A DNA stretch of 39,955 bases, taken from positions 1 through 39,955 of the IMG/VR virus record IMGVR_UViG_3300007735_000719; one strand, given 5' to 3'. The translations under genes were made by a program, and so were the position numbers. Below, in pieces: positions 4,440-31,433 of the stretch. The DNA is from a virus. The stretch's first letter is position 1. Every line of letters begins with the position of its first letter. Under the pieces are notes generated by a model. It searched no databases. It was not told the DNA's origin and saw nothing but the letters and a program-made list of their open reading frames with translations.

Positions 4440-4493
4440 ATCTGGCTCCAAAAAGCCCCCGGTGAACCTCGCCGGTACGGTACTTCAAACATA

Positions 4494-5051
4494 TCACGGC
4501 GATACAAAGCCCTGCAAGTTGACGTAAACGGCACCCGTGACGGAGGCAGTCAGCGTCGCGACTTCCAGCAGCGTGTTGGCCGTGCTTTTTAGCGGCACGT
4601 TGAAGTCAATGCTCATGGTCGGCAAACCGCCGGTCGGGATCTTGGTGCGCCAGATGACCGTGCCTGCCGCGCCGTCGCGGATGACCAGTTCGGTCGCCGC
4701 GCCCAACGCTTCCGCCATCACCTGAATGTTGGTGATGTAGTTGCGGAGCGAAGCGCCGGCCGCAGCCCTGACGGTCACCGCCGTGGTGGTGTTCACAATG
4801 CCCGACGCGGCGGCGGCGTAGTTCCAGCCGGCTTCTGGCGTGGTAAACGGCATCACGGCCTGCAAACCGCTGGAGGTCATGGTCAGGCGCACCGCGTCGC
4901 CCGCCGCAAACGTAATCGGCGGGGTAGCCGCCGCGCGGACTACGCCGCCGCTGATAATCGGGTTCGATGTAGTCGCGGCGTCTTCAGCGACTGCGCCGCC
5001 GGTAAGCGTAGTGATCGAAGCCAGCGTGGTGCCGGTAGGTAAAACGTTCAT
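4494..5051 (-). CDS. Hypothetical beta-rich virion protein
   Basis: A 185-aa protein rich in Ala, Thr and Val. The C-terminal half (SLRNYITNIQVMAEALGAATEL, then VIRDGAAGTVIWRTKIP) resembles small beta-sandwich proteins found in phage head regions. It has no membrane segment. The start overlaps the preceding stop as ATGA, so it is translationally coupled to the 99-aa protein upstream. Its place between portal and scaffold suggests a head-surface or head-fibre role; I cannot name it. Confidence 0.75.
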   Translation of the reverse strand: MNVLPTGTTLASITTLTGGAVAEDAATTSNPIISGGVVRAAATPPITFAAGDAVRLTMTSSGLQAVMPFTTPEAGWNYAAAASGIVNTTTAVTVRAAAGASLRNYITNIQVMAEALGAATELVIRDGAAGTVIWRTKIPTGGLPTMSIDFNVPLKSTANTLLEVATLTASVTGAVYVNLQGFVSP

Positions 5052-5706: not shown

Positions 5707-7808
5707 TGCATCGGCTCCTGCATCGGCATCTCACCCGGAAGTTCTTGCGGCGGCATCTCGGGCATCCCGCCGGCTGGCGACGCAAGGTCGCCGGACTCCA
5801 TCATGCCGTGGATAGTGCCCAGCACGACGTCTTGCACCTGATCTGGCGTCATCCCGGCCATCGTCGCCGAAATCCGCTTCGTTTCGGCGTCATAACGCTT
5901 GATGTTAAGCTCCTGCGCTTCCATCGACTGCGCCACGCTCTGCAACATCTGGTGCATCTGCTCCATTTCCTGACCCATCGCCGCCATCTGCTGCTCCGCC
6001 TGCATCAAAGCCGGCGTTTTGTCGTCATCCGACAGCAGTTTCGGATCAATCGTCTTCGCAAACCGCGCAGCCATCTCCTGCGCGCCCGGCCAGTCCATAT
6101 TCTTGACGAAAAGGTCGCCTGCAATGGCCCAAAGCTGCGGGTTGCCCTGCAAAATCTGGCTCATCGCGTCCATCGCTTCCTGACGCTTGGTCATGTAGCT
6201 CGGGCCAGTGGTGACGCACACGTCGTATTTGCCGACGCCGGGGTTGTAAATCTTCTCGATTACGTTCCCCATGTCATCTTCCACCTTCCGCACCGGCTCC
6301 GGCTGCGTTGGGTCGATCTTCACCGCCTTCGCGTCGCCGTCCAGCCCGACAATCCGCGCTATCCGCTGCGTATCGTAGATTTTCGGCACCAAGTCCACAA
6401 TCTGACGGGTAATATGCCGCACGGCACGCGCCAGATTGTCCACATAGTGGTACGTCCCGGTGTCGCCCTGCTTCTCTCGCGCCAGAATCGCCCGGCCCGA
6501 CCGCTCGTTGCTGGTCGCGCCCAGGCTTGAATCATATTGCCCGGTGGTCGATTTGATGTCGTCGGACGCGCCCATCTTGGCCTGAATCAGACCAGTCTGC
6601 GCCAGCGGCGGCTGCGCGCGCTGCGGCAGTGGCAATACCGACCCCTGACCGTCCGTTACATCCGGGTTGACCTCCAAATACGGCCAGTTGTTGACGTTGG
6701 CCGTCTTCCACTGGTTCTCATACCCTTCAAACTGCCCGCCGTAGCCGATGAACGGCGCCTTGGGCGCCAGCGCCAGCATTTCCGCTTCCTGACTGACCCA
6801 GTAGTTGTACATGCGCTGGGCGTCTTTGGCGTTGCGGACGATGCCGGACACGAACACCCGGCCGTCCACCTCAAACTCGTTGCCGACCACGCGCACGACC
6901 GGAATCCATTTGCCCGCCCACTCGCGGTCTTCCAGCACTTCAAAGCCGTTGATTCGGCACCAGCGGATTTTGCGGCGGTTGACCTCGCGGCTCTTGATGG
7001 GCCTGTAGCCCATCGCCTTGACCTGCGCCATTTCCGGCGCGTCGTCGTACAGGACGATGTTACCGGGGAACATGTGCAGCGTGGTTGGCTCGTACTCGGC
7101 GTAGAAGTACTCAGCAATTCGGACGGTGTCTTCGTTGATCCACTGGCTCAACGACTGGTCGCCAACGCCCTGCTGCTCAATGCTGGACAGCGGCGTAGCG
7201 TCGGGGTACTGCCGCTCAAACTCCTCTTTCAGCAGATCTTCTGTGATGAAGCACCACTCGGCGTCGGCGCCGCAGGGGTCTTGAATGGTCGGATCCATGT
7301 ACACGCTGAACGAGTTCCGAATCCGGCCAATCTTGATGTCCTGATCGAACGAATCGTCGTCGCAATACTCCGTCAGCAGCCGGATGTAGCCCTCGCCATA
7401 CGTCACCTGGTTCTCGCAGGCCGTGTCATACGCCACGTCGGCGTCGCTGATGTACTCGATGTGTCGCACCAGCCCGTCGAATATCTCGGCCACCTCAACG
7501 TCGGCCTTGTCATCCGCCGGGATGACCTTGCCCGACGGCCGGTTCTGCCGCTGGTCGTTGGTGACCTGCTTGACGTGCTGCGGAAGCTTGTTGATAGTCA
7601 GGCACGGCCGCGCGTTGATGGTCTGGCCCTGCACCGACCCCCGCGTCGCCAGTACGTCCGCCGGCCACTGCCAGTGGTTGTCCGGCGACCCCGCAGCGAA
7701 CCGCAGGTCGTCTATCTCATCCTCGCGAGACTCGGAGTACGCCGACACCGCCAGCGTCATGCGATGGCGGGCCTGCGACAGCAGGTCTTCCTTACTTTTT
7801 CGCGCCAC
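5703..7808 (-). CDS. Portal protein (P22 gp1-like)
   Basis: A 701-aa portal protein, close in length to P22 gp1 (725 aa). It forms the dodecameric channel through which DNA enters the head and to which the tail attaches. Characteristic stretches are the N-terminal helical part with TKNKLPQHVKQVTND-like sequence (seen TINKLPQHVKQVTND), QPDMTGDQGS-type loops, ERSGRAI in the stem region and a long Met/Gln-rich C-terminal coiled coil (about residues 590-700), which corresponds to the P22 barrel. Start is GTG at 7808; no nearby ATG would keep the conserved N-terminus. It overlaps the 44-aa gene upstream by 17 bases. Confidence 0.93.
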   Translation of the reverse strand: MARKSKEDLLSQARHRMTLAVSAYSESREDEIDDLRFAAGSPDNHWQWPADVLATRGSVQGQTINARPCLTINKLPQHVKQVTNDQRQNRPSGKVIPADDKADVEVAEIFDGLVRHIEYISDADVAYDTACENQVTYGEGYIRLLTEYCDDDSFDQDIKIGRIRNSFSVYMDPTIQDPCGADAEWCFITEDLLKEEFERQYPDATPLSSIEQQGVGDQSLSQWINEDTVRIAEYFYAEYEPTTLHMFPGNIVLYDDAPEMAQVKAMGYRPIKSREVNRRKIRWCRINGFEVLEDREWAGKWIPVVRVVGNEFEVDGRVFVSGIVRNAKDAQRMYNYWVSQEAEMLALAPKAPFIGYGGQFEGYENQWKTANVNNWPYLEVNPDVTDGQGSVLPLPQRAQPPLAQTGLIQAKMGASDDIKSTTGQYDSSLGATSNERSGRAILAREKQGDTGTYHYVDNLARAVRHITRQIVDLVPKIYDTQRIARIVGLDGDAKAVKIDPTQPEPVRKVEDDMGNVIEKIYNPGVGKYDVCVTTGPSYMTKRQEAMDAMSQILQGNPQLWAIAGDLFVKNMDWPGAQEMAARFAKTIDPKLLSDDDKTPALMQAEQQMAAMGQEMEQMHQMLQSVAQSMEAQELNIKRYDAETKRISATMAGMTPDQVQDVVLGTIHGMMESGDLASPAGGMPEMPPQELPGEMPMQEPMQ

Positions 7809-8168: not shown

Positions 8169-8578
8169 CGGCAGTGGATGAGCGCGAAGTTGATGCCCAC
8201 CGCTTCCGCCAGCGCGCCGGCCGTGGTGTTCCGCAGCGTGATGCTGGCCGTGCCCGCGCCCAGCGCGTCAACCCACAGGTTGTACGAAGCGGCGGTGGCG
8301 CCGGCGGCCACGTTCAGGATCAGCACGTCGTTGGCGCTGATCAGGTTGTTGTTCAGCGTGAACGACACGTTGGTCGTCGCGCCGAGGCTGGCCGCGTTCA
8401 TCGTAATGCGGCCCGCCGACTTGTTCAGCGTCACGGCGGTGGACTTGCTGGTCGCTTGCGTCACAGTGCCCTGCGCGGCGGTGGTGTAGCCCAGCTCGCG
8501 GTCGGACAGAATGACGTCCGAACCGTTAATCTCCTGATCCGCGTAAGCAACGCCAATCGGTTTCGTATTGCTGCTCAT
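8165..8578 (-). CDS. Small protein carrying a tail-fibre-type C-terminal domain
   Basis: A 137-aa protein whose last 100 residues closely resemble the C-terminal domain of the tail fibre at 34574-35827. Shared segments include VTQATxKSTAVTL, ITMNxAxL, VSFxLNNxL and EAVxINFA (x marks differences). The first 37 residues are a short unique leader. The domain is probably an all-beta trimerising or capping fold. The gene lies between the large terminase and the portal, so the product may be a head fibre or head-surface protein. Stop and next start overlap as ATGA. Confidence 0.8.
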   Translation of the reverse strand: MSSNTKPIGVAYADQEINGSDVILSDRELGYTTAAQGTVTQATSKSTAVTLNKSAGRITMNAASLGATTNVSFTLNNNLISANDVLILNVAAGATAASYNLWVDALGAGTASITLRNTTAGALAEAVGINFALIHCR

Positions 8579-10108: not shown

Positions 10109-11044
10109 TTACTCGGGCAGCCCGCGGCCTAACACGACAATTTTGTCGTACACCGGATGCTCTTGTTTGCCGTATCGTATTTTTCCTACCACGTTTCCAA
10201 GATGAACGTCACCTTTCACGGTGGGCCTGAGTCGGGGTTCGTCGCCTTTTGCGTATCGGCTTAAATTGACGCCTGTAGGGTATTCCACCGACAACGCGTA
10301 TTTATGCCCTTGCTCGCCTTTAGGGGCGCTGTGCTGAACGGTGATCAGCTTAAAGTCGCCCGGCGGATTGGCGGGGTATCCTTCCGGCACGTCAACCCAC
10401 GACCAGCCGGAGTTTTTCCGCGCCAAATTAGTTTTGACCGTGCTACCGGCAATTCGGGACGACGCGGGGGTAAGCGAAGACATTTCTTCTGACACCATGA
10501 ACGACGCTTTGCCGTCTGGCGCTACGCGGATGCTAGCGGCTGACGGCGTTATGCCAGTCAAATCCGTCAGGTCGCTTGGCACCAAATACCGGCCGCCGGG
10601 CTCATACCCCGCCGCGCCAAATCGCGGTTTGTATTCTTTGCTTGCCGGGTCTAACCAGCGTTGAGGCGCGGGCACAACGGGTTTGGTTGTTGCGGGCATA
10701 GGCACGTCAGGCAGTCCGCGAATTGCCGCGCCCATCCCCAGCGTTCCCGCTCCTGCTTTAGGCCCGAATGGAATGCCGCCGGTCATGGCCGCGCCGGCAA
10801 AGCCCATAGCATCCTCGGGCGTGGTCTGACGGCCCATCAGCGCCTGCCGTGGCGTACTGATCGTCGAGTCTATGCCCGCCAGCAGTTTCGCCAGAATGGC
10901 GTTGCCCGTCGCCTGATACCCTGACTTCTCGGGCTGCGGCGCGAACCGGCTGAAGATGGGCGTGACCGGGTAGTTGATGTTGCCGTCCTCGTCCATCGTC
11001 ACCAGCGCATTCTGCGGCTGCGGCGCCAGCATGTTACGGGGCAT
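10109..11044 (-). CDS. Unknown protein between small and large terminase
   Basis: A 311-aa protein. I prefer ATG at 11044 (GAGG six bases upstream) over GTG at 11056. The N-terminal 140 residues are Gly/Ala/Pro-rich and resemble the low-complexity leaders of phage virion proteins, with QPEKSGYQATGNAILAKLLAG. The C-terminal 170 residues form a compact beta-rich domain with RWLDPASKEYKPRFGAAGYE, WSWVDVPEGYP and KYALSVEYPTG. I do not recognise the family. It overlaps the small terminase by 11 bases and ends 3 bases before the large terminase. Its place suggests a packaging or virion role, or a cargo gene inserted between the two. Confidence 0.8.
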   Translation of the reverse strand: MPRNMLAPQPQNALVTMDEDGNINYPVTPIFSRFAPQPEKSGYQATGNAILAKLLAGIDSTISTPRQALMGRQTTPEDAMGFAGAAMTGGIPFGPKAGAGTLGMGAAIRGLPDVPMPATTKPVVPAPQRWLDPASKEYKPRFGAAGYEPGGRYLVPSDLTDLTGITPSAASIRVAPDGKASFMVSEEMSSLTPASSRIAGSTVKTNLARKNSGWSWVDVPEGYPANPPGDFKLITVQHSAPKGEQGHKYALSVEYPTGVNLSRYAKGDEPRLRPTVKGDVHLGNVVGKIRYGKQEHPVYDKIVVLGRGLPE

Positions 11045-11432
11045 GGATGACCTCACCTTCTATGACTCGGGCCTGCGCTTGGGCCAGGGCGTCGGTTATC
11101 GAGATCTGCTGCGCGACGTCAACCTGAACATGCGTCTTCGCGACCCAGCCGTGCTGGTGCTTCAGAATCTCCAGCGCCGCCTTGGCGTCGCCCGCGAACG
11201 CAGCATCGTGCAATACATTCGACAACGCAATCTCCGCGTCCGCCCGACCCTTCGCCACCGCCAAGTCCACCAGCGGGTCGGCTGACGCCAATCGCCGGTA
11301 CTCGGCCGGCAACATCCCGGCCGCTAACGCCAGCGAATCGCCCTTCAACCCCCGGTGCGCGGCGGCGTACAACGCCTCCAGATGCGCCTCGGTCGCGCTG
11401 ATGTCGCGGATAGTGAGCGGAAGCCCTCGCAT
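11034..11432 (-). CDS. terS: Probable small terminase subunit (TerS)
   Basis: A 132-aa helical, Ala/Leu-rich protein placed at the head of the packaging genes. The N-terminal half (ISATEAHLEALYAAAHRG, LAAGMLPAEYRRLASADPLV) looks like a helix-turn-helix DNA-binding domain, and ILKHQHGWVAK is a segment common in phage small terminase-like proteins. The acidic end (ITDALAQAQARVIEGEV) is typical as well. It would recognise the packaging site and recruit TerL. ATG at 11432 has only a weak Shine-Dalgarno site. A perfect 14-bp inverted repeat ends 11 bases upstream. Confidence 0.75.
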   Translation of the reverse strand: MRGLPLTIRDISATEAHLEALYAAAHRGLKGDSLALAAGMLPAEYRRLASADPLVDLAVAKGRADAEIALSNVLHDAAFAGDAKAALEILKHQHGWVAKTHVQVDVAQQISITDALAQAQARVIEGEVIHAP

Positions 11433-11442
11433 AAAGTGCCCG

Positions 11443-11474
11443 TTGCTGTAGAACTGCGAGCAGTTCTACAGCAA
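11443..11474. promoter_or_regulatory. Perfect 14-bp inverted repeat before the small terminase
   Basis: Arms TTGCTGTAGAACTG (11443-11456) and CAGTTCTACAGCAA (11461-11474) are fully complementary around the loop CGAG. It lies 11 bases upstream of the terS start. There is no T-run in either direction, so it is not a terminator. It could be an operator for the late operon, a TerS/packaging site, or an mRNA stem that affects the terS start. Confidence 0.75.
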
Positions 11475-11739
11475 AAAATGTCGGCTGTCTAGCGTAAAAG
11501 AGTTTTTTTGCAAAAAAAAATTGTTTGCGAGCCCTACTGTAACAGTCACCCGGCCCCCGCTCGGCCCTATCCGGTGGCCTCGTCCGACCGCGATTTGCGG
11601 CCGGCCGGCCGGCCGGATGCCCGCCACGCCGCGCGTGACGGCCTACAGCGCACGCTAGCGGGCTGGGTGCGGGTAGGGTAGCACTAGGCGCCTTGCGCGC
11701 CTTGTAGCGCGTTGTACGCGGTCACGCGGGCATGCGGAC

Positions 11740-11763
11740 GCTAGCGGCCGGCTGGCCGCTAGC
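11740..11763. repeat. 10-bp inverted repeat in GC-rich intergenic DNA
   Basis: GCTAGCGGCC and GGCCGCTAGC flank the loop GGCT with no mismatch. It lies within the non-coding control region, with no T-run. A structural or protein-binding role is possible. Confidence 0.6.
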
Positions 11764-11786
11764 TCGATGCCAGGGCGAGCCGGCCG

Positions 11787-11814
11787 GGCCGGCGAAGGGC
11801 GGCCGGCGAAGGGC
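11787..11814. repeat. Two tandem copies of a 14-bp unit
   Basis: GGCCGGCGAAGGGC is present twice back to back (11787-11800 and 11801-11814) and is followed by a partial third unit (GGCCGG). Iteron-like, but two copies are few for an origin. Confidence 0.6.
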
Positions 11815-11929
11815 GGCCGGACGGCGTGCCTAGCATCAGCCGCGGGCCGGGGGCGCCGCGCGTGCCAGGCATACCACGCGCGCCGTGGGGTAATGTGGGT
11901 GATGTCGGCAGTCTAGAAGGGGGGTTTTA

Positions 11930-12050
11930 TATCGCTACAACCTATTACTAATATGTTAGTACATACTAACATTACTCTGATCCACTAATATCTAGTTATC
12001 TAACTGTAATTATACACAAGACTAGAAAACACGCTGTAAATCAAATACAT
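11930..12050. promoter_or_regulatory. AT-rich island with palindrome; candidate origin or operator
   Basis: A sharply AT-rich stretch inside very GC-rich DNA. It contains a perfect 20-base inverted repeat ATGTTAGTA-CA-TACTAACAT (11953-11972), two direct copies of ACTAATAT (about 11947 and 11984), and a short inverted repeat AGTTA-TC-TAACT just after. Easily melted DNA with repeats and palindromes between divergent blocks is common at phage origins and at switch operators. No initiator gene is adjacent, so the function is open. Confidence 0.45.
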
Positions 12051-12236
12051 ACAGCCGGCCGCCGGCCTGGCATGGCACGGGCGTAGTAGGCGCCGACAAC
12101 CGGCCGCAGATACCGCCGACACTCGCCCGGCGCCGCTCGCCGCTCGCCGCGCGCAGCACGGCCGTCCGGCCGCCCGCCCGGATTTTCAGCGGGCCGCGAA
12201 AAAACGCCACCCACAAACACCGAAAAACGCTTGAGA

Positions 12237-12252
12237 ATCCTACACTTAGGAT
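12237..12252. promoter_or_regulatory. Small inverted repeat upstream of early promoter 1
   Basis: ATCCTA-CACT-TAGGAT, perfect 6-bp arms, 40 bases upstream of the -35 box at 12293. Its position suggests an operator or activator site for the early promoter, but the arms are short. Confidence 0.35.
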
Positions 12253-12292
12253 CGATTTTAGGGACTGCCGACACTGGATTGTAAAGAAATGC

Positions 12293-12322
12293 TTGACAAC
12301 CCGGAGCGCGCGCGCGTATCGT
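12293..12322 (+). promoter_or_regulatory. Early promoter 1 (TTGACA-N18-TATCGT)
   Basis: TTGACA at 12293-12298, an 18-base spacer and TATCGT at 12317-12322, followed 35 bases later by the first early gene. The -35 box is a perfect sigma-70 consensus. The same two boxes with the same spacer occur at 14415-14444, which supports a real shared promoter type read by host RNA polymerase. The spacer is unusually rich in CG steps. Confidence 0.7.
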
Positions 12323-12794: not shown

Positions 12795-13604
12795 ATGAAC
12801 ATCACAATCCCTGATCACTACCTGAACCTGCCGCGCGCGGCTCTACTGCGCGCAATCGAGCGCGAAACCGGGCTGCACGTTCGCAGCTTACTGGCCGCGC
12901 CCACGAAAAACCCTAAACTCGCCAAGAGCCTGAAAATCCGCGTGCTCTCATTCCCGTTGCACCTGGCGCCCGCCACGCTGGGCGCGCCGGCCGCTAAACC
13001 TAAAGCCACCGTTTGCCCGGCCGCGACGCCGGGTTGTATCAAGGCATGCCTTAACACTGCCGGCAATCCGGCCTACGCGCGCGGCAAGCGCGTCGCGCGC
13101 CGCGCCCGGACGTTGCTGTTCTGGCAGCGTAAGGATCTGTTTTTCGCGTTGCTGATGCTTGAGATTCGCGCAGCTGCGGCTAAAGCTCGCCGCAAGCGCA
13201 TGCGGGCCGCATTCCGGCTTAACGCGACCAGCGATATTCAGTGGGAGCGGTACTCGATCAACGGCCGGCCGTTGATTGCCAGCGTGTTCCGCCGGCTGTC
13301 GTTCTACGATTACACGAAGATCCCGAACCGCGCGACGCCCGAGAATTACCGGCTCGTTTTCTCGCTCGCCGAAACCGCGCGTAATCGCCGCGCGGCCCGT
13401 GCCGAACTAGCGGCCGGGCGGAACGTAGCAGCAGTGTTCGCCACGCCACGCAATCGCCCGCTACCGGCGAGCCTATGGGGCCACCGAGTGATTGATGGTG
13501 ACGCGCACGATTACATCCCCGCGGATCCGGCCGGCGTGGTACGTGGCCTCCACGCTAAGGGCGCTGCCATTCGCGATACTAGCGGGTTCGTATTGCCGGC
13601 CTAG
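12795..13604 (+). CDS. Conserved phage protein with Cys cluster (DUF7227-like)
   Basis: A 269-aa protein with a recognisable conserved pattern: VCPAATPGCIKACLNTAGNP (three Cys, about residues 75-90), ARRARTLLFWQRKDLFFALL, RLNATSDIQWE, SFYDYTKIPNR, NYRLVFSLAE, GRNVAAVF, VIDGDAHDYIPADPAGVVRGL and AKGAAIRDTSGFV at the end. I know this as a widespread phage and mobile-element family without assigned function (DUF7227 or similar; name from memory). Conserved Asp, His and Cys residues suggest an enzyme. I chose ATG 12795 because GGAA lies ten bases upstream; the GTG at 12789 would be too close. Confidence 0.8.
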   Translation: MNITIPDHYLNLPRAALLRAIERETGLHVRSLLAAPTKNPKLAKSLKIRVLSFPLHLAPATLGAPAAKPKATVCPAATPGCIKACLNTAGNPAYARGKRVARRARTLLFWQRKDLFFALLMLEIRAAAAKARRKRMRAAFRLNATSDIQWERYSINGRPLIASVFRRLSFYDYTKIPNRATPENYRLVFSLAETARNRRAARAELAAGRNVAAVFATPRNRPLPASLWGHRVIDGDAHDYIPADPAGVVRGLHAKGAAIRDTSGFVLPA

Positions 13605-13627
13605 GCTGCTGATGATGGCCGGCCGAA

Positions 13628-13645
13628 ACGGGGCGCAAGCCCCGT
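13628..13645. promoter_or_regulatory. Intergenic stem-loop
   Basis: ACGGGGC-GCAA-GCCCCGT, perfect 7-bp stem with a stable four-base loop, between the stop at 13604 and the next start at 13670. It has no T-run, so it may stabilise or process the early mRNA rather than end it. Confidence 0.5.
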
Positions 13646-13669
13646 CTAGCTAACCAAGAGGATCGAAAG

Positions 13670-13936
13670 ATGAACCTAACCAAGGCAATCCGGGCGGCGA
13701 GCTCCGCCCACTATATGTACCGCGACGGCGGCTGGCTGCGCGCCGACGGCCAGCACCGCTCGCCGACGGACTACTGGGCCGGGCGCGCCGCCGTCCGGGA
13801 TGCGCGCATTGCGTATGTGCTCCAGCATGCGGCCGGCCTGTCGCCGGCTCGCGCGCAAGACGTGGCGCGCCACGCCGCGCCGGCCGCCGGCCGGTGGCAG
13901 GATGCGGCCCGCGCGATGGTGGAGCGGCAGGCATGA
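13670..13936 (+). CDS. Small early protein
   Basis: An 88-aa protein, aromatic near the start (SSAHYMYRDGGWLRADG, then SPTDYWAGRAAVRDARIAYV) and Ala/Arg-rich later. AGAGGA lies eight bases before ATG 13670. Its end overlaps the next start as ATGA (13933). It is the third Ala/Arg-rich small product of this block. Function unknown. Confidence 0.65.
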   Translation: MNLTKAIRAASSAHYMYRDGGWLRADGQHRSPTDYWAGRAAVRDARIAYVLQHAAGLSPARAQDVARHAAPAAGRWQDAARAMVERQA

Positions 13937-13995
13937 TCCACGCTATCGTCGCTGTCGCCCTTTTGTGGCTTGCTTTGTGGAGCGCGCGGCCATGA
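13933..13995 (+). CDS. 20-aa membrane micropeptide
   Basis: A very short ORF, MIHAIVAVALLWLALWSARP, almost entirely one hydrophobic helix. It is joined by ATGA overlaps to the 88-aa gene before it and the 58-aa gene after it. The exact overlap on both sides argues for translation. It may be an inner-membrane peptide or serve only to couple translation. Confidence 0.5.
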   Translation: MIHAIVAVALLWLALWSARP

Positions 13996-14168
13996 CGTGC
14001 CTTGTCGCTCAAGAGCGGCGCCGCGCTCGCCAGCGCGCGGCCCGGCGCCGCAACGCCCTGGCGCTGCTGCTGCTGCTGGCGCTGGCCGGCGGCCTAGGCG
14101 CCGTGCTAGCCCGCGCGCTTGATCATCCCGTTAACAATTATCCGGCGCCTAGCGCATGGCGCCATTAG
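13992..14168 (+). CDS. Small single-pass membrane protein
   Basis: A 58-aa protein with an Arg-rich N-terminus (ERRRARQRAARRR), a strong Leu/Ala transmembrane helix at about residues 22-40, and a short polar tail ending PSAWRH. The positive-inside rule puts the N-terminus in the cytoplasm. ATGA overlap with the 20-aa micropeptide. It is the last gene before a strong terminator. Function unknown; early membrane proteins may act in superinfection exclusion, which is a guess from context. Confidence 0.65.
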   Translation: MTCLVAQERRRARQRAARRRNALALLLLLALAGGLGAVLARALDHPVNNYPAPSAWRH

Positions 14169-14186
14169 GCGCCGCGCGCGCCCCTG

Positions 14187-14214
14187 AGCCCGGCCTAGCG
14201 CCGGGCTTTTTTTT
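14187..14214 (+). terminator. Rho-independent terminator after early block 1
   Basis: AGCCCGGC-CTAGC-GCCGGGCT, perfect 8-bp stem, followed by eight T residues (14207-14214). It lies 19 bases after the 58-aa gene and should end transcripts from early promoter 1. Confidence 0.9.
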
Positions 14215-14326
14215 GCCCTGCGGCCTGCGGCCTGCGGCCTGCGCCCTGCGGCCTGCGCCCTGCGCCCTGCGCCCTGCGCCCTGCGCCCTGCGCCCTGCGC
14301 CCTGCGCCCTGCGCCCAGCGGCCTGG
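14215..14326. repeat. Heptamer array, 16 units of GSCCTGC
   Basis: Sixteen back-to-back 7-bp units starting at 14215, mostly GCCCTGC with some GGCCTGC; the last two are degenerate (GCCCAGC, GGCCTGG). No unit is lost or shifted. The array starts directly after the terminator T-run. Ala/Arg/Pro ORFs read through it on both strands, but they are by-products of the repeat. Possible roles are an iteron-type binding array, a structural element or a replication-slippage expansion. Confidence 0.9.
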
Positions 14327-14343
14327 CATCACAAGGCGCCACC

Positions 14344-14399
14344 ATCGGGCTATCGGGCTATCGGGCTATCGGGCCTTCGGACGTTCGGGCCTTCGGGCT
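14344..14399. repeat. Octamer array, 7 units of ATCGGGCT-like sequence
   Basis: Seven 8-bp units: three ATCGGGCT, then ATCGGGCC, TTCGGACG, TTCGGGCC and TTCGGGCT. Further CTTCGG motifs continue through the spacer of the promoter just downstream (about 14425, 14434 and 14451). The array therefore runs into early promoter 2 and may bind a regulator there. Confidence 0.85.
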
Positions 14400-14414
14400 A
14401 GCGTCACACAATCG

Positions 14415-14444
14415 TTGACAAACCTTCGGCGCCTTCGGTATCGT
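14415..14444 (+). promoter_or_regulatory. Early promoter 2 (TTGACA-N18-TATCGT)
   Basis: TTGACA at 14415-14420, 18-base spacer, TATCGT at 14439-14444. Boxes and spacing are the same as in promoter 1 at 12293. The spacer contains two CTTCGG motifs. It drives the 80-aa gene at 14478. Confidence 0.72.
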
Positions 14445-14477
14445 CGCGCTTTCGGTAACAACAACAGGGGGAACGCA

Positions 14478-14720
14478 ATGTTTACGCTTAATCTGGTCAC
14501 CCGCTCGCGTCGCGTTATGTCGCGCGATGTCGGGCTGGATCTCGCGCAGTCGGAACACGACATCCACACCGCTGCGGCCGGCTTGCTTGCGGCGGCGGTG
14601 TCGGAGCATTCGGACATTGTCGATGCGAACGTATGCTGGGACGATCCGCGCTGCGATACTAATTATCGCGTGCTGGCGCACTGGGCGGCCGGTGTGGTGC
14701 GTGCCGGGGAGTACAGCTGA
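14478..14720 (+). CDS. Small early protein
   Basis: An 80-aa protein starting MFTLNLVTRSRRVMSRDVGL, with SEHDIHTAAAGLLAAAVSEH in the middle and WDDPRCDTNYRVLAHWAAG near the end. GGGGGA lies seven bases before ATG 14478. Directly downstream of promoter 2 and joined to the next gene by a TGATG overlap. No family recognised. Confidence 0.7.
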   Translation: MFTLNLVTRSRRVMSRDVGLDLAQSEHDIHTAAAGLLAAAVSEHSDIVDANVCWDDPRCDTNYRVLAHWAAGVVRAGEYS

Positions 14721-14899
14721 TGCACTGGGCCGACTCGGCAACGCACTGGGACGGGCGCTGGTTCCAGCACCCGGTCACCGGCTACCCCAGCACTCGCGAT
14801 GAGTGCTGGGACTTCACGCGCGAAGTGAACCTGGCCGATATCGGCGAGGCGCCGGCGCTGGTATTCAACCCGGACGCCGGCGACTTCGAGTTAGCTTAA
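14720..14899 (+). CDS. Small acidic early protein, convergent with the primase gene
   Basis: A 59-aa acidic, Trp-rich protein starting MHWADSATHWDGRWFQHPVT and ending NPDAGDFELA. It starts at the last base of the preceding stop (TGATG). Its stop overlaps the primase stop from the other strand by four bases (14896-14899), with no terminator between them. Function unknown. Confidence 0.7.
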   Translation: MHWADSATHWDGRWFQHPVTGYPSTRDECWDFTREVNLADIGEAPALVFNPDAGDFELA

Positions 14900-17208
14900 C
14901 CAGTCACCGCCCGCAGCCCGGGCGCCGGATCTGTTTCGGTCATTCGGCGCAGGTCGGACTTGCTGTAGCTGGCCAGCTGCGGCGCGCAGTATAATTGCTT
15001 TTTGGTCGGATATTCGCGCGACGACACCAGCCCGCAGTCCAGCCAGCCACACTCGGCCAGCGCGTGCAGTAACGCCGCCTTCGGTATTCGGATGCCGGAC
15101 AGGTTGCCGGCCTGTATGCGTGAGCATAGCGAGCTGAATGGCGACGCAATGACGCCCGCGGCGAACTCGCCGACGCGGTTCTCGATCATGTCAATCAGCA
15201 GTTCCTCGGCCGGGCTGCGGCCGTCGGACACCAGCGTCTCCCAGTACCTAGTGCGAATCGGCGCGGCGCCCGGGTTGAACCGACTGACATCCCGCGCGTA
15301 CAGGTGTTCGGCCACGGCATCGTATCCGCCGTTCGCGTACCACGACCACAGCAGTTCGGCGTCGGCCACGTCCATCCGCCCGCCGACGCACTTCAGCACC
15401 AGCCAGCGCCGGTCGCTGGAGTCCAGCACCAGCGGCACCTGTTCATTCGAGTACGCAACGACCAGCAGTCGGTTCAAGGCATCATAGGGGCGCAGGCCCT
15501 TTCGGTTGACCGACAAGTATTCGGGCGGCGCGGCCAACAAGGGCTTCAATTTGTTGGCGAGCGCGCGCCGGGCACCGGCATCGGAATCGCGCAGTTCGTT
15601 CAGCACCAGCACTTCGCATTCAAGGTGGTAGCCCCATGCGGAGTTCAACTCATCGCCCTGCACCAGCCCCCGGTTGCGCTGGAACGGCCCGCAGACGGCC
15701 CGCAGGAACGGCGCGATCAGCGAGTCTTTCCCGCACCCGGCGTGCCCGGCCAGCAGCACGCCGTGATTGATCTTCACGTCGGGCCGCTGGAGCTTGAACG
15801 CCAGAACGTCCAGCAGCGCCTCACGCTCGGCTGCGTCGGGCAGCAGGGCCTCAAGGTGCGCCAGCCATAGCCCGGCGCCCTGAGCGGTCACAGGGCGCCC
15901 CGGGCGGGCGTCCACCCAGCGGTTGCCGTAGACCTCGCCGCCGTCACGCTCCACCAGCGCCGGCAGGCCGGGCGCGTAGGTGATGCCGGCCAGCGCCCGG
16001 CCGCCCTTCGGCTGGCGCATGGCGTCGAACCACTGCGACGCCTGAATCAGATTGCCCTTGCCGTGCGGCGACCGGAACGCGATGTGGGCGTACAGCGCAT
16101 TGAACCCCCGCCGGGTCACTTCGGTGCGGTCATCGATGTTGAAGTAGCCGTCGTCGCTGACAACGTAGGCCCAGTGCCTGTGCAGCTCGTCGGCTTGCAG
16201 CCGCTGATGCTCGCGTGCCTGCACGGCGGCCAGCACCTCGGCGGCTTCGGCTTCAGCGACTGAGCCGGTCGGCAGCTTGTCAAGCGCGGCGGCCATCGTC
16301 GCGGCCAGCAGTTCCTCGCGCAGTCCGGGCTCACGTTTTGGGCCTCCCCGGGCCGCTACCCAGTCCAGAAACGCCCGCGAGTCCAACTCCACGCAATGCC
16401 CGTGGTAACAGCAGAACGACCGCGACGCAGGCGCATACCGGGCCTCGGGGTTGCTGTCGGAATGCTCGGCGGCGTTCGGGCAGACGACCGGCGCCCAGCC
16501 GCTGACGTTCGGGCGGCCCAGCACCAGCCCTTCGGCCAGCAGCCACGACCAGACATCGTCGGTGCCATCGTCGGCAAGGCCGACGGCCGGCGACCAGGCG
16601 CGGGTGTCGGCGTCTGGCGATTCGGCCGTGATGCTGAAGGCGTCGCACAATTGCAAATAGGTGAACTGGCGTTCGGGGTGGAACTCGACCAGTCGGGCGG
16701 CAAAGCCGTCGCGCTTGAGATTGACTGAGCCGGGCAGGCGGAAGTTCCTCACCAAGCCGCCGGCGCCGGGGTCGGTGAACTCAAGCTCGGCCAGCCGGCG
16801 CACCAGCGCGACGAACTGCGCCCCGGACGGCACGCCGTCCTCAGCGAAGGCGAAGCCGTACTGGTGGTTGCCGGGCGACGTTTCCATGATCCAGCTCGGC
16901 GCGATCGGCGGAACCTTGGACTTCGTGCCGACATCGTCCAGCACCAGCACCAAGGGGAACTCGACGCAGCGGGCCTGCGCGACCGGGCGGCCGTCGGGGA
17001 ATCGGTCGACGATGAACGACCCGGTATTGCCGTACACCGCCCAGCTAGGGTCGATACGGGCGTCGGGCACCATCGGGATGAAGGTGCACTTCGGTGACCC
17101 GTCGGCGTGGAACGCCGGCGGGCGCACGGGCTTCTGTCGAACGACCAGCGCCGTCTCGCCGTCGGGCGCCAGACTTGCGTACCAATCAATGAAAGTCTTA
17201 CAATCCAT
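14896..17208 (-). CDS. Primase/SF3 helicase (RepB/VapE-type)
   Basis: A 770-aa replication protein with two enzyme parts. The N-terminal part (about 1-200) looks like an archaeo-eukaryotic-type primase: LVLDDVGTKSK with Asp91/Asp92, and METSPGNHQYGFAF. Next comes a possible zinc site (Cys243, then CCYHGHC at 266-272). The C-terminal part (about 450-620) is a superfamily 3 helicase: Walker A AGHAGCGKDS (487-496), Walker B EVLVLNE (532-538) and VVAYSNEQVPL as motif C. It should prime and unwind phage DNA together with the polymerase gene upstream. AGGAGGAG precedes ATG 17208. All motifs are intact. Confidence 0.9.
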   Translation of the reverse strand: MDCKTFIDWYASLAPDGETALVVRQKPVRPPAFHADGSPKCTFIPMVPDARIDPSWAVYGNTGSFIVDRFPDGRPVAQARCVEFPLVLVLDDVGTKSKVPPIAPSWIMETSPGNHQYGFAFAEDGVPSGAQFVALVRRLAELEFTDPGAGGLVRNFRLPGSVNLKRDGFAARLVEFHPERQFTYLQLCDAFSITAESPDADTRAWSPAVGLADDGTDDVWSWLLAEGLVLGRPNVSGWAPVVCPNAAEHSDSNPEARYAPASRSFCCYHGHCVELDSRAFLDWVAARGGPKREPGLREELLAATMAAALDKLPTGSVAEAEAAEVLAAVQAREHQRLQADELHRHWAYVVSDDGYFNIDDRTEVTRRGFNALYAHIAFRSPHGKGNLIQASQWFDAMRQPKGGRALAGITYAPGLPALVERDGGEVYGNRWVDARPGRPVTAQGAGLWLAHLEALLPDAAEREALLDVLAFKLQRPDVKINHGVLLAGHAGCGKDSLIAPFLRAVCGPFQRNRGLVQGDELNSAWGYHLECEVLVLNELRDSDAGARRALANKLKPLLAAPPEYLSVNRKGLRPYDALNRLLVVAYSNEQVPLVLDSSDRRWLVLKCVGGRMDVADAELLWSWYANGGYDAVAEHLYARDVSRFNPGAAPIRTRYWETLVSDGRSPAEELLIDMIENRVGEFAAGVIASPFSSLCSRIQAGNLSGIRIPKAALLHALAECGWLDCGLVSSREYPTKKQLYCAPQLASYSKSDLRRMTETDPAPGLRAVTG

Positions 17209-27267: not shown

Positions 27268-30063
27268 TCACGGCTGAAGATTGTTCAGAATCTGACGCGG
27301 GGGTTCAGGAGCCAGAAAGTTCCTGACCCTCGGCGGGTTAACGCCGTAACCTTTTGCGCCGCCTGCAATGGCATCTTGAATCAGCTTGCGGGTGCTGCTT
27401 TCGTTCATGAGCGCCACCGCGATGTTGTGCGCCTGCTCTGTCCGGGCCATGCCGGACAAACGCCGGGTAATGGCATTCATCATGATTTCCCATGTGATGC
27501 CGACCGGCGCTTTTACTGACGGCATAGGCGACACGTCTAGCAGTTTTGATCCGACGCTTCTGCCTTTGCTTGCCAGTTCCGCAAACATCTGCCCGGATTG
27601 AATCTCTCGGCGGATGTCGGCAACGATCTGTTGAGCTTCCGGCAAATCGCGAACCAGTGTCGGCGCCAGCTTGTCAGGATCAACATTAAACTGATTTTGC
27701 AGCGTCCGCGCCTCGGCCGCTACAGTCTCGCCCGTCACCGGCAATGCTCTGGCGGTTTCCCTTGCGGTTTGCAGTGACTGTCTGGCCGCTTCCTGGCGCA
27801 ACTCAAGCTGCTCCCGCGTTGCCGCGCCGCGCTCTGTCACGGCTTTAACCTCGTCGGCTTTTTTCTGTGCGGCCGATGTGATCTGTTGACGGCCGGCAGG
27901 GATTTCCGTTTTCAGCTGCTCCAGCGTTTGCCGGACATCACCCTGCACCGCCGCCGCCGGCTGCCGACCGCCCAACGCACGCGCCTCCCGCTCGGCCGCA
28001 GTCAGCGCCGCCGTCTGCACGTCCACCGCGCCCTGCGCGGCGCCCTGCGCTCGGATCAGCGGCACGTCCAGACCACGGTCGCGCAGCGTCTGCAAAGTGC
28101 CGCCGTAGCGTTGCAGGAACTGTGCGTGCGCGCCTGAGTCAATGATGCCGTTCTTCACCACCGCCCGGCGGTAGGCGTCTTCAATGCCCTGCTGCATCAA
28201 ATCCATCGCCACCGGATTGTCGCCCAGCATGTCCATGAATCGATTCGCCTTGGTCACGCCGCTGCCGGAAACAGTTGGGCGAAAGTATTCATCCACTACA
28301 CGCTCCAGCGGAATGACGGGCTCGCCATTACGGTCGGCCAGAAAACGCTGGTTCAGCCTGCCCGTGCGAAACGGCACAACGTATGTGGACTTGTAAAACT
28401 CAACGGCGGCGTTATCTAGCGCCTTTAACTCGGCCGGCACCAGCTCATCCGGGAATGACTGTATTTTCTCGTCTAGCGCCTTTCGCAATTGCACCAGATT
28501 GGCTTTCTTGGCTCTTAGCTCGGGGTTGTCGGCGATCCGACGCAAGTCCTTATTGATGGCCTCGCGGGCGTTAATCAAGTCTTGCCAATTTGCGACCGCC
28601 TGCCGTTGCGGCGCTGTGGCGGCGCCGCCGTACATAGCCGAAAACGGCGATGGCGCCTCGGGGGGCACCGGGCGCAGCTTGGTCAGCGCGGTTGCAATTT
28701 TCGGGATGTCCTCCGGCTTGAACCCGGCTTCCGCGATGATCTGATCTGCCTTTTGAACAAAATCATCCACCGGCAGCCCAGTGACGTCAGCCCCAGCTTC
28801 GCGCACCTCGTCAAACTTCGCTTTGACCGCTGTCAGCGCCGCCGACTCTTTTGCCCTGGCCTGCTGGCGCAGCCCAGCCCCCAATGCCGTCACGTCGCGC
28901 TCGGGCAGCGCCGCGCCCACTTCGGCTTGCCGCGCGGTTTCAATCGCGCCACGCTCCGCAGCCGCCGCTTCCGCCACACCAGCCGCGCGTTGCTGGGCCT
29001 GCGCCAGCGCGTCGCGGGCGGCCGTAATCTCGGCCATACCTGCCTGTTCGGCCTGAGCCCGCTGTTGCGCTGTCAGCGTTTTGTTCGCCGCAAGGTTTCG
29101 GCGCAGCATCTGCAAGCGATCTTCGGCGTGCGACACCATCTGCCGGCCTTGCAGCACTGCGGCCTGCGCTTCGCGCTCGGCGACCTGCTGGGCGCCCAAC
29201 AGCCGATTCCGCGACGACAGCGCCCGCTCCGACGCAATGTCCGCATAGCGGTTGATGACTTCGCCTTGATTGACGCGCTTTGCTGCGTCAACGAATCCGG
29301 CCAGCACGGGCTTGTTCAGAATGACAGCAATTTCTTCCAGCGTCCTGCCCTGCCCTAAAAGTTGCAGCGCCTGCTGCATCGCCTGCTCATCGTTAGCAAA
29401 CGCCTGCTGGATCGTGCGGTTCACAATCGCCTGCTGCCCGCCAGCGAGGTAAGGCTCCGCTACAGAAAAAACCCGTCGAGCGACGGGCGTTGCCACAGCT
29501 TTAACAGTTGGGCCAATTACCGGCAACAGCGCGCCGGCCCCGCCGCCGACCATTGCGCCGGACAAGGGGTCGTCCGTGGCAAGCGGCCCCGAGACTATGC
29601 CGGTGGCCCCGCCACCCAGCATCCGCTGAAGTGGCCCTAACCTCCGCCCAAACCCAGCGGACTGTAGGGCGGGCATCAGGTAGTTCGCGGCGCCGGCCGG
29701 CAACAGCGCGCCGGCGCCCCGCACCAGCATGTTGGCCGCGCCGACGGCCGGAACCGTTTCTCCGGCAAACCTGCCAAAGGAGCTATACCCCGAGGTTGGG
29801 TCGTAGCCAAAGTTCTGCTGTAGCTGTTGCAGGTTCTTTGCCCGTTGGGCCTCGGCGCTTTCGGGTGTCTCGACGCCAATAATGCGGTTTAGGCGTGTGC
29901 CTACATTGCCAAGCCCCTGCACGAAACCGCCCGCCAGGTTCCCGAACGCGCCGACGGCTTCCGTCAAATAATCGCCGGCCGAGGACGTGTAGCCTTCTGA
30001 AGGCGTTGGCGCCGATGATGCAAAAAGATCTCTGGGCTGTTCAGCAAATAAATCTCTAGGCAT
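27268..30063 (-). CDS. Large internal virion protein
   Basis: A 931-aa protein. The N-terminus MPRDLFAEQPRDLFASSAPT is followed by Gly/Ala-rich, possibly membrane-active segments (about 35-200) and then long charged coiled coils full of Ala, Gln and Arg (about 280-420 and 690-800). This composition is typical of ejection proteins of short-tailed phages, which leave the head with the DNA and form a conduit across the periplasm. I start at ATG 30063, overlapping the preceding stop as TGATG; the GTG at 30066 is an alternative. No enzyme motif found. Confidence 0.8.
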   Translation of the reverse strand: MPRDLFAEQPRDLFASSAPTPSEGYTSSAGDYLTEAVGAFGNLAGGFVQGLGNVGTRLNRIIGVETPESAEAQRAKNLQQLQQNFGYDPTSGYSSFGRFAGETVPAVGAANMLVRGAGALLPAGAANYLMPALQSAGFGRRLGPLQRMLGGGATGIVSGPLATDDPLSGAMVGGGAGALLPVIGPTVKAVATPVARRVFSVAEPYLAGGQQAIVNRTIQQAFANDEQAMQQALQLLGQGRTLEEIAVILNKPVLAGFVDAAKRVNQGEVINRYADIASERALSSRNRLLGAQQVAEREAQAAVLQGRQMVSHAEDRLQMLRRNLAANKTLTAQQRAQAEQAGMAEITAARDALAQAQQRAAGVAEAAAAERGAIETARQAEVGAALPERDVTALGAGLRQQARAKESAALTAVKAKFDEVREAGADVTGLPVDDFVQKADQIIAEAGFKPEDIPKIATALTKLRPVPPEAPSPFSAMYGGAATAPQRQAVANWQDLINAREAINKDLRRIADNPELRAKKANLVQLRKALDEKIQSFPDELVPAELKALDNAAVEFYKSTYVVPFRTGRLNQRFLADRNGEPVIPLERVVDEYFRPTVSGSGVTKANRFMDMLGDNPVAMDLMQQGIEDAYRRAVVKNGIIDSGAHAQFLQRYGGTLQTLRDRGLDVPLIRAQGAAQGAVDVQTAALTAAEREARALGGRQPAAAVQGDVRQTLEQLKTEIPAGRQQITSAAQKKADEVKAVTERGAATREQLELRQEAARQSLQTARETARALPVTGETVAAEARTLQNQFNVDPDKLAPTLVRDLPEAQQIVADIRREIQSGQMFAELASKGRSVGSKLLDVSPMPSVKAPVGITWEIMMNAITRRLSGMARTEQAHNIAVALMNESSTRKLIQDAIAGGAKGYGVNPPRVRNFLAPEPPRQILNNLQP

Positions 30064-31433
30064 CACTGCATCCCCAATCGGCGGCGAACCTCGTCTGGCG
30101 ACATGTTGTATTTTTTGGCGGTGTACGCAATATCTTCCTCAGTCGGAAGCGGGTTCTTGCCGCCAGCCGGCGCCGCCGCGCCTTGGCCGGCAGCGGGCGA
30201 GGCTTCCTGCGGCGCGGCGCCGGGGGCCGTCGGCGTTTTGCCCAGTTCGGGGAACTGATACCCCTGGTCTTCCGAATACATGTCTCGGAAGTCCTGCTGC
30301 ATGTCTTCATAGACCTGAATGAAACGCTTCAGTTTCTGCTCTACAACGGGCGGGTCGTCATTTGCTTTAGGAATAAACGGCATTAAGCGCGGGTATTCCG
30401 ACGCCGTGACGGCGGCGCCGGAGCGGTCGTGAATGATCATGCTGCCCAAATCCGCGATGGCCGCGCGGGTTGGGACGCCTTCGGGGTCTAGACGCGACAG
30501 CGCCGCATCAGGCAAAAATCCTTTCACACCTGTTGCGGCTTTAGACCCAGCTTGCTCGCCTACTTTGCCGCCCTGTATCAGCGTCAATGCGTTTCGAGCT
30601 AACCGCAGAGAATGCTCGTTTTCCATCACCGCGCGCGCGACCGGGCTTGGTAACGCCTTGAGGCCGCCGCCTTTAGTTTTGCCGGCACCAGCGGAGGTGG
30701 CAATTTCTTTCCCGTAAGCGTTGAACTGATGCACCGTCCCGTCGTCGTCGGTTTCAGTGCGCGCCACCACGTTCGCGTCTGGCGCGCCGTCGCCGCGCTT
30801 GGATTTGAAGTACAACGCTTGTATTTCCGGCGGCTGGGTAGACAGCCATTGCGCCGTCCGCACATCCGCCGGGAGCTGCCCAGCCTCGGTCGGCGCGCGG
30901 TACAAATCATGCTCCATAAACCGCTGCATCGCCTCTTGGAACGGGGGCGTGCCTGGCGTCAAACCGGCATCAATAAGCGTCTGCGCGCGGTCGGACGGTT
31001 TGGCTATGTCGGCTTCTTCTTTAGCCGTCATCCCGCGCATCCGCCGGGCGAGAATCGAGACTTTCGCCGGGTCGTTCAACTGACTAACGATGAACTGAAC
31101 GTGCGGCGGGCCGATGCCCAACGCTTCGGCCATATCCGGGTCTTGCGCAGCCGTGGAGATCAGGCCCATCAGCGCGGTAGGGTCTTCGCCGGCCAGCGCG
31201 GCGCCATTGCGGAATGCGTTGATCTTGCTTTCCAGCCGGGCCTTGCGCTCGGTCGCCTGCCCCGTCGCAATATCCTGCTGATACTTCTGCGCCTGCAACT
31301 GATTGGCCTGCATATCATTCTGCAAGCTCTGGATCTTCATGATGGCGCCAAGCTGGTTCATCCCGGCGTTCGGGTCGGGCTGCGGCATTGAGATGGGCGT
31401 CAGCCCTCGGACAAGCGTCGGATCTAATGGCAT
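30063..31433 (-). CDS. Virion protein, probable DNA-ejection factor
   Basis: A 456-aa protein, helical and Ala/Gln-rich at the start (MNQLGAIMKIQSLQNDMQAN, then AQKYQQDIATGQATERKARL), with a structured centre (LARNALTLIQGGKVGEQAGS) and a Pro/Ala tail. The pattern of N-terminal coiled coil followed by a compact domain is common in phage ejection proteins that sit between tail and larger internal proteins. Start ATG 31433; the genes on both sides follow without a gap. The role is inferred from order and composition. Confidence 0.75.
   Translation of the reverse strand: MPLDPTLVRGLTPISMPQPDPNAGMNQLGAIMKIQSLQNDMQANQLQAQKYQQDIATGQATERKARLESKINAFRNGAALAGEDPTALMGLISTAAQDPDMAEALGIGPPHVQFIVSQLNDPAKVSILARRMRGMTAKEEADIAKPSDRAQTLIDAGLTPGTPPFQEAMQRFMEHDLYRAPTEAGQLPADVRTAQWLSTQPPEIQALYFKSKRGDGAPDANVVARTETDDDGTVHQFNAYGKEIATSAGAGKTKGGGLKALPSPVARAVMENEHSLRLARNALTLIQGGKVGEQAGSKAATGVKGFLPDAALSRLDPEGVPTRAAIADLGSMIIHDRSGAAVTASEYPRLMPFIPKANDDPPVVEQKLKRFIQVYEDMQQDFRDMYSEDQGYQFPELGKTPTAPGAAPQEASPAAGQGAAAPAGGKNPLPTEEDIAYTAKKYNMSPDEVRRRLGMQ

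Follow-up and report, generated by a model that had tools for sequence, protein, structure and literature searches.

Why should two tandem repeat arrays with different units stand back to back between the terminator of one phage operon and the promoter of the next, and do they form a fixed regulatory switch or a site at which repeats turn over? The question arises in a 39,955-base virus record, IMGVR_UViG_3300007735_000719, the whole of which we analysed and refer to as the window. Its matches to portal, major head protein, large terminase, DNA ejection, and head closure Hc3, together with a family A polymerase, a primase-like protein, and a DUF2800 exonuclease, fit a podovirus-like phage. Among named records, the closest is an uncultivated Podoviridae sp. 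from Manatee Spring (58% for the polymerase and 45% for the primase), and a nucleotide search of positions 13000 to 15500 against named phages gave no match. A search for the host found no prophage; one 49% relative sits in an uncultured bacterium bin. Small rightward genes occupy ~12.3 to 14.2 kb behind promoter 1 (operon 1) and 14.48 to 14.90 kb behind promoter 2 (operon 2), and the primase operon runs leftward, converging on them. Judged by gene layout alone, both rightward operons are probably early. Operon 2 encodes small orphans that differ from clade to clade: an 80-residue product (14478 to 14720, plus strand) without a family match, which varies among relatives, and a 59-residue product (14720 to 14899, plus strand), whose relatives were found in G002 and G006 only. 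Elsewhere in the window, a leftward 932-residue open reading frame (27268 to 30066) has no PHROGs or Pfam match, and a long divergent noncoding gap (11433 to 12292) contains an AT-rich stretch and, near 11955, a TTAGT-ACTAA dyad that is kept in relatives (TTAGTGATCACTAA); this gap is a possible origin or operator region.

Operon 1 is closed by an intrinsic-terminator-like element on the plus strand at 14186 to 14214 (terminator 1), identified by a terminator scan (9 pairs, 7 of them GC) and from the sequence, with a hairpin at 14186 to 14208 and a T-run at 14207 to 14214. Array B starts directly after the T-run and consists of 15.9 copies of the heptamer GCCCTGC/GGCCTGC (14215 to 14325, 93% matches); its TRF score of 180 far exceeds any other in the window, and it is 86% GC and C-rich on the plus strand (skew -0.22). 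Array C follows on the same strand, with 7.1 imperfect copies of the octamer ATCGGGCT/TTCGGGCC (14344 to 14400, TRF score 65, 83% matches), and ends 14 bp before promoter 2, a sigma70-like element (TTGACA, 18-bp spacer, TATCGT; 14415 to 14444, plus strand) found by promoter scan and aligned in six genotypes. Its spacer carries CTTCGG at 14424 and 14433. The heptamers abutting the T-run, the octamer run behind them, and the continuation of CTTCGG into the promoter spacer, all described in an earlier note on this DNA, are thus present. Over the whole window CTTCGG is not enriched (29 found versus 26 expected), and what stands out is its clustering; the candidate operator TTCGG-N4-TTCGG in the spacer (14425 to 14438, plus strand) is the sole exact copy within the window. 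Promoter 1 (12293 to 12322, plus strand) has hexamers identical to those of promoter 2, and upstream of it lies a 2.4-copy remnant of a third array, array A, with a 14-bp unit (11787 to 11820, plus strand). The self-identity of the region was 0.95 at 7 bases and 0.82 at 8 bases, compared with maxima of 0.50 and 0.60, respectively, in 500 dinucleotide shuffles, placing arrays B and C far beyond chance. A mechanical open reading frame (14156 to 14401) spans both arrays, but we rejected a coding role, since unit lengths of 5, 6, 7, 8, 10, 14, and 15 in relatives break the frame. Rfam returned four hits on the region, all subthreshold, three of which overlap the terminator.

Scans of viral contigs yielded a group of 13 related contigs (G001 to G013) plus L228, which is probably the other half of G004 (same sample, both ending in array B). 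G007 and G008 represent one strain from two metagenomes (99.96% identity over 7,915 bp). G010, which ends within the primase gene, is uninformative; G009 stops before the terminator; and G012 and G013 (67 to 68% in the primase) have a different arrangement past the primase, with no array of score 60. Gap C could therefore be read in nine genotypes (the window, G001 to G006, G007/G008, and G011) and gap B in seven (the window, G001, G002, G004/L228, G005, G007/G008, and G011); for gap A, upstream of promoter 1, eight genotypes were counted, including the window. A comparable terminator stands in the same place in G001, L228, G005, and G007/G008. Array C is present in eight of its nine genotypes, and six of seven have a GC-rich array following the terminator, the exception in both cases being G011. 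Full versions of array A occupy the equivalent place in seven of eight genotypes (G001, G002, L228, G005, G007/G008, G009, and G011), the window having only its remnant. Promoter 2 is present in 6/9 and missing in G001, G003, and G011. Across the window and 16 pieces drawn from 12 contigs, arrays scoring at least 60 are concentrated in the same two gaps; elsewhere such rows are few, comprising a 6-bp coding repeat (G007/G008) and, in five pieces, repeats of roughly two long units. Just before terminator 1 of G007, an apparent gene (L203, 9285 to 9355) contains 11.8 copies of GCGACA encoding a Ser-Asp repeat tail. In G012/G013, an apparent counterpart gap (L196, ~6857 to 7136; L202, ~10978 to 11262) holds TGGGTAGT/ACTACCCA repeats in both orientations and no arrays.

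Within this conserved layout, the words of array B change. The unit is CGCCCGCCAG in G001, CCCGGCGGCCAGCG in G002, of CCAGCG and CCAGCGCCCG types in G004/L228, CCCTG followed by GGCGGACA in G005, and CGCCCGCCCGGCCAG in G007, differing completely even within a clade (G005, G001, G004, G011, and G008) that is 85 to 89% identical in the primase gene, a nucleotide comparison used because the broken reading frame of G005 invalidates the amino acid one. Nor do the units keep step with primase kinship: the G005 pentamer resembles the window heptamer, and both arrays begin with GCCCTGC adjoining the T-run, while G005 and G007, 94% identical to the right of array C, have B arrays without a common unit. 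Array C retains a TCGGRC core in 8/9 genotypes, with the unit TTCGGGCN in G001, G002, G003, G006, and G007 and mainly TATCGGAC in G004 and G005, and for array A most genotypes share a core of GGGCWGAC or GGGTGAC. Array B thus swaps its word, and arrays A and C vary mostly in number and detail. The earlier note found the switch in period from 7 to 8 odd; across the group it is not, the arrays being separate and their units varying independently. Its alternative suggestion of a fast-changing slippage region is supported, in that these are head-to-tail short units beyond chance whose sequence and copy number differ in every distinct related genotype, as in a variable-number tandem repeat. Between G007 and G008, a single strain pair, there were three SNPs and no gaps over the 7,915 bp spanning all arrays, and the arrays were identical save for one SNP, in array A; there is accordingly nothing to suggest very rapid change over such a period.

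The arrays are also found apart from the promoter. In G001 both promoter 2 and the genes behind it are gone, and the octamers directly adjoin the end of the primase region; in G003 a remnant of operon 2 comes after the octamers, without promoter 2; and in G011 (primase 68% identical in amino acids) everything from terminator 1 through most of operon 2 is missing. The locus appears to be a place where cargo comes and goes, and, provided that all these genomes are viable, the arrays would be dispensable and not strictly tied to promoter 2. These genomes lack the constant promoter tie of a contingency repeat of the hmw type, and they count against the proposal in the earlier note that binding arrays link promoter control and replication, as G001 and G003 have octamers without promoter 2 and G011 lacks arrays B and C as well as the promoter. 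The post-terminator unit, moreover, lacks the conservation required of a binding site. A relative without both arrays, which the note had named as evidence against its idea, was encountered once (G011), although the whole promoter 2 region is also gone there. What may survive, in narrower form, is a binding array made of the octamer, with TTCGG as both octamer core and spacer motif.

On balance, we favor the explanation that the arrays are noncoding G-run minisatellites turned over by slippage or recombination, with at most a modulating role. We see directly the arrays, their positions, the turnover of their units, and their presence without promoter 2; their function we infer to be weak or absent. 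The gap between the terminator of operon 1 and the promoter of operon 2 would probably be hardly transcribed. A short GC-rich word beside the terminator (in the window, GCCCTGC after the T-run) would be copied head to tail by replication slippage, the presumed cause, or by unequal recombination, and on one strand each unit has runs of three G, whose folding could aid the copying. Arrays would then expand, contract, and be replaced by arrays of other units while their flanks remain recognizable, and the phage would tolerate this turnover because, we propose, nothing essential is located in the gap. The more conserved array C (TTCGGGC core) may modestly tune promoter 2. The feature is real and unusual but its mechanism is probably ordinary, with minisatellites whose position is kept and whose words change in the probably untranscribed gaps around early operon 1; it resembles a site of fast minisatellite change more than a fixed switch. 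As to folding, canonical G-quadruplex motifs (four runs of three G, loops of 1 to 7) numbered 41 in 3,086 bp of arrays versus 14 in the 267,608 bp outside, a contrast inflated by repetition itself. Seventeen of 23 arrays have at least one, and the window has two in array B and one in array C. Quadruplex-competent units were 11 of 21, with the two L228 arrays left out, and 7.8 were expected from unit shuffles, so composition accounts for most of the excess.

Two observations count against neutrality. With orientation set by the early genes, array A is G-rich in 7/7 cases and the main B arrays are C-rich in 7/7 (G004 and L228 counted separately), a G005 sub-array, B2, having the opposite skew, and the skew of array C lies between -0.04 and 0.33 in all eight arrays. 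Such nonrandom strand skew is not predicted by pure neutrality, but common ancestry may explain it. In addition, the array C core and the spacer TTCGG are kept across genomes only 67 to 79% identical in the primase, which suggests some constraint. In a different explanation, TTCGG would be the binding site, both within the promoter 2 spacer and in the upstream octamers, for a regulator of phage or host origin, and octamer copy number would tune operon 2. The TTCGG-N4-TTCGG pair is invariant in all six genotypes having promoter 2, the same six carry array C with TTCGG within their octamer arrays, and promoter 1 has no TTCGG in its spacer. A precedent exists in Haemophilus influenzae hmw1A, where, according to the portion of the report available, the copy number of a 7-bp promoter repeat alters expression (PMC8262952). 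Array C nevertheless persists without promoter 2 in G001 and G003, the motif spacing is 9 bp in the promoter and 8 in the array, many units in G004 and G005 are TATCGGAC rather than TTCGG, no regulator has been identified, and array B is left unexplained. Since the invariant spacer pair is the best sign of function at this locus, we regard an operator as rather unlikely but worth serious consideration.

A bolder proposal, which we consider improbable, is that phage minisatellites are born in the gaps that follow intrinsic terminators: the hairpin or the transcription complex would stall the replication fork, the adjoining G-run word would be copied in tandem, and selection would keep any array as an operon barrier regardless of its sequence. 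It draws on the retention of position while the unit is swapped and on a scan of viral contigs for four heptamers, which found 17 contigs in 11 clusters mutually unrelated by DNA. Ten of the 17 (6/11 by cluster) had heptamers within ~100 nt of a terminator-like site, as judged by a purpose-written scanner; with the window the count is 11/18, versus 1.3 expected at random positions, an enrichment that is an upper bound, as random positions include coding DNA. With that baseline, the association is a lead and not a result. The heptamer was absent from 395 genomes of the phylum to which the bin of the 49% relative belongs, as was a reversed control, so this search has no baseline. We also considered the octamer as a widespread phage signal and rejected it: three copies of TTCGGGCN occurred in 12 contigs (6 from the group and 6 others), and its recurrence outside the group is ordinary, since one scrambled octamer matched 7. 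Among 72 more distant primase relatives, 12 had an array scoring at least 60 within 4 kb past the primase.

Other phage contigs contain arrays of further kinds. L021, a 50% primase relative, has ten copies of an CGGCTATC octamer (~4463 to 4542) and a second octamer run, of TGGGCAGG type, in a divergent gap. L237 and L239 are weakly similar to the window in the polymerase region, and L239 has a 23.7-copy heptamer array beside an CCACCCTGG decamer run (519 to 685). L172, L174, and L175 carry octamer runs of GCATTCGGG type, GC-rich words in AT-rich contigs. In L209 (3801 to 3996) and L215 (962 to 1226), GCTGGTGG, the Escherichia coli Chi octamer, occurs five times on one strand and not at all on the other within the locus, all copies lying in a repeat-rich gap behind a terminator. 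The window has two Chi sites, neither near the arrays.

Still less probable is insulation of transcription, in which Rho would load on array B upon read-through of terminator 1 and on array C upon leftward read-through from the convergent replication operon. The C-rich, G-poor composition of array B is as expected (C minus G at the 99.9th percentile of the window, plus strand), the bottom-strand RNA of array C is weakly folded (-12.5 kcal/mol), and in a 50% relative (L030) five tandem 23-bp T-run units stand directly past the primase gene (8297 to 8413), a tandem terminator-like array. Rho sites, however, have little RNA secondary structure, and the RNA of array B is strongly folded (-53.2 kcal/mol for 111 nt), no more weakly than shuffles; in folding, neither array beat shuffles on either strand. 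C minus G in array C is ordinary (38th percentile, plus strand), and G011 manages without both arrays.

Iterons of phages and plasmids are tandem direct repeats in the control region of an origin, and the arrays resemble them as tandem direct repeats in a control region that adjoins the primase operon. Arrays are likewise present in the divergent gap upstream of promoter 1, and the TGGGTAGT repeats of G012/G013 lie in the apparent counterpart of that gap. Unlike iterons, array B has a unit conserved in neither sequence nor length, is very GC-rich (86%), and is missing in G011, and no initiator or initiator-site pair was found; we think it highly improbable that the arrays bind a replication initiator. 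Least credible of all is an assembly artifact, suggested by contigs that terminate inside or at arrays (G002 at both ends, G003, G004, L228, and G006), given that two assemblies of one strain match over the arrays except for one SNP and that arrays recur in the same gap in eight genotypes. Because of these contig ends, unit numbers near them are lower bounds.

An array that is kept while its unit changes separates the importance of sequence from that of the mere presence of an array, and the natural deletions (G001, G003, and G011) and unit swaps in the group offer the means to test that split. The arrays also explain contig breaks in the early region of these phages in genome catalogues. In titles and abstracts, with subscription journals mostly outside the scope of the search, we found no phage arrays that are positionally conserved and swap units. 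In Acinetobacter phage AJO2 a minisatellite is likewise named, as one VNTR entry in a table of repeats; the available part of that report describes no conserved position among relatives (PMC6401600). The mouse Pc-1 repeat (GGCAG)n, quadruplex-forming and a recombination hotspot in the part of the report available (PMC2248197), shares short G-run tandem units with our arrays, and the minus strand of the CCCTG array behind the terminator of G005 is the same repeat in another rotation. In contrast to Pc-1, our arrays belong to a phage, are intergenic, lie beside a terminator, and are known from sequence alone, and the window unit reads GGGCGCA on the minus strand. The heptamers of H. influenzae hmw1A, as far as the accessible text describes them, are similarly in or near a promoter and variable in copy number (PMC8262952), but in the phages described here the unit itself changes among relatives, and an array may be present where the promoter is not.
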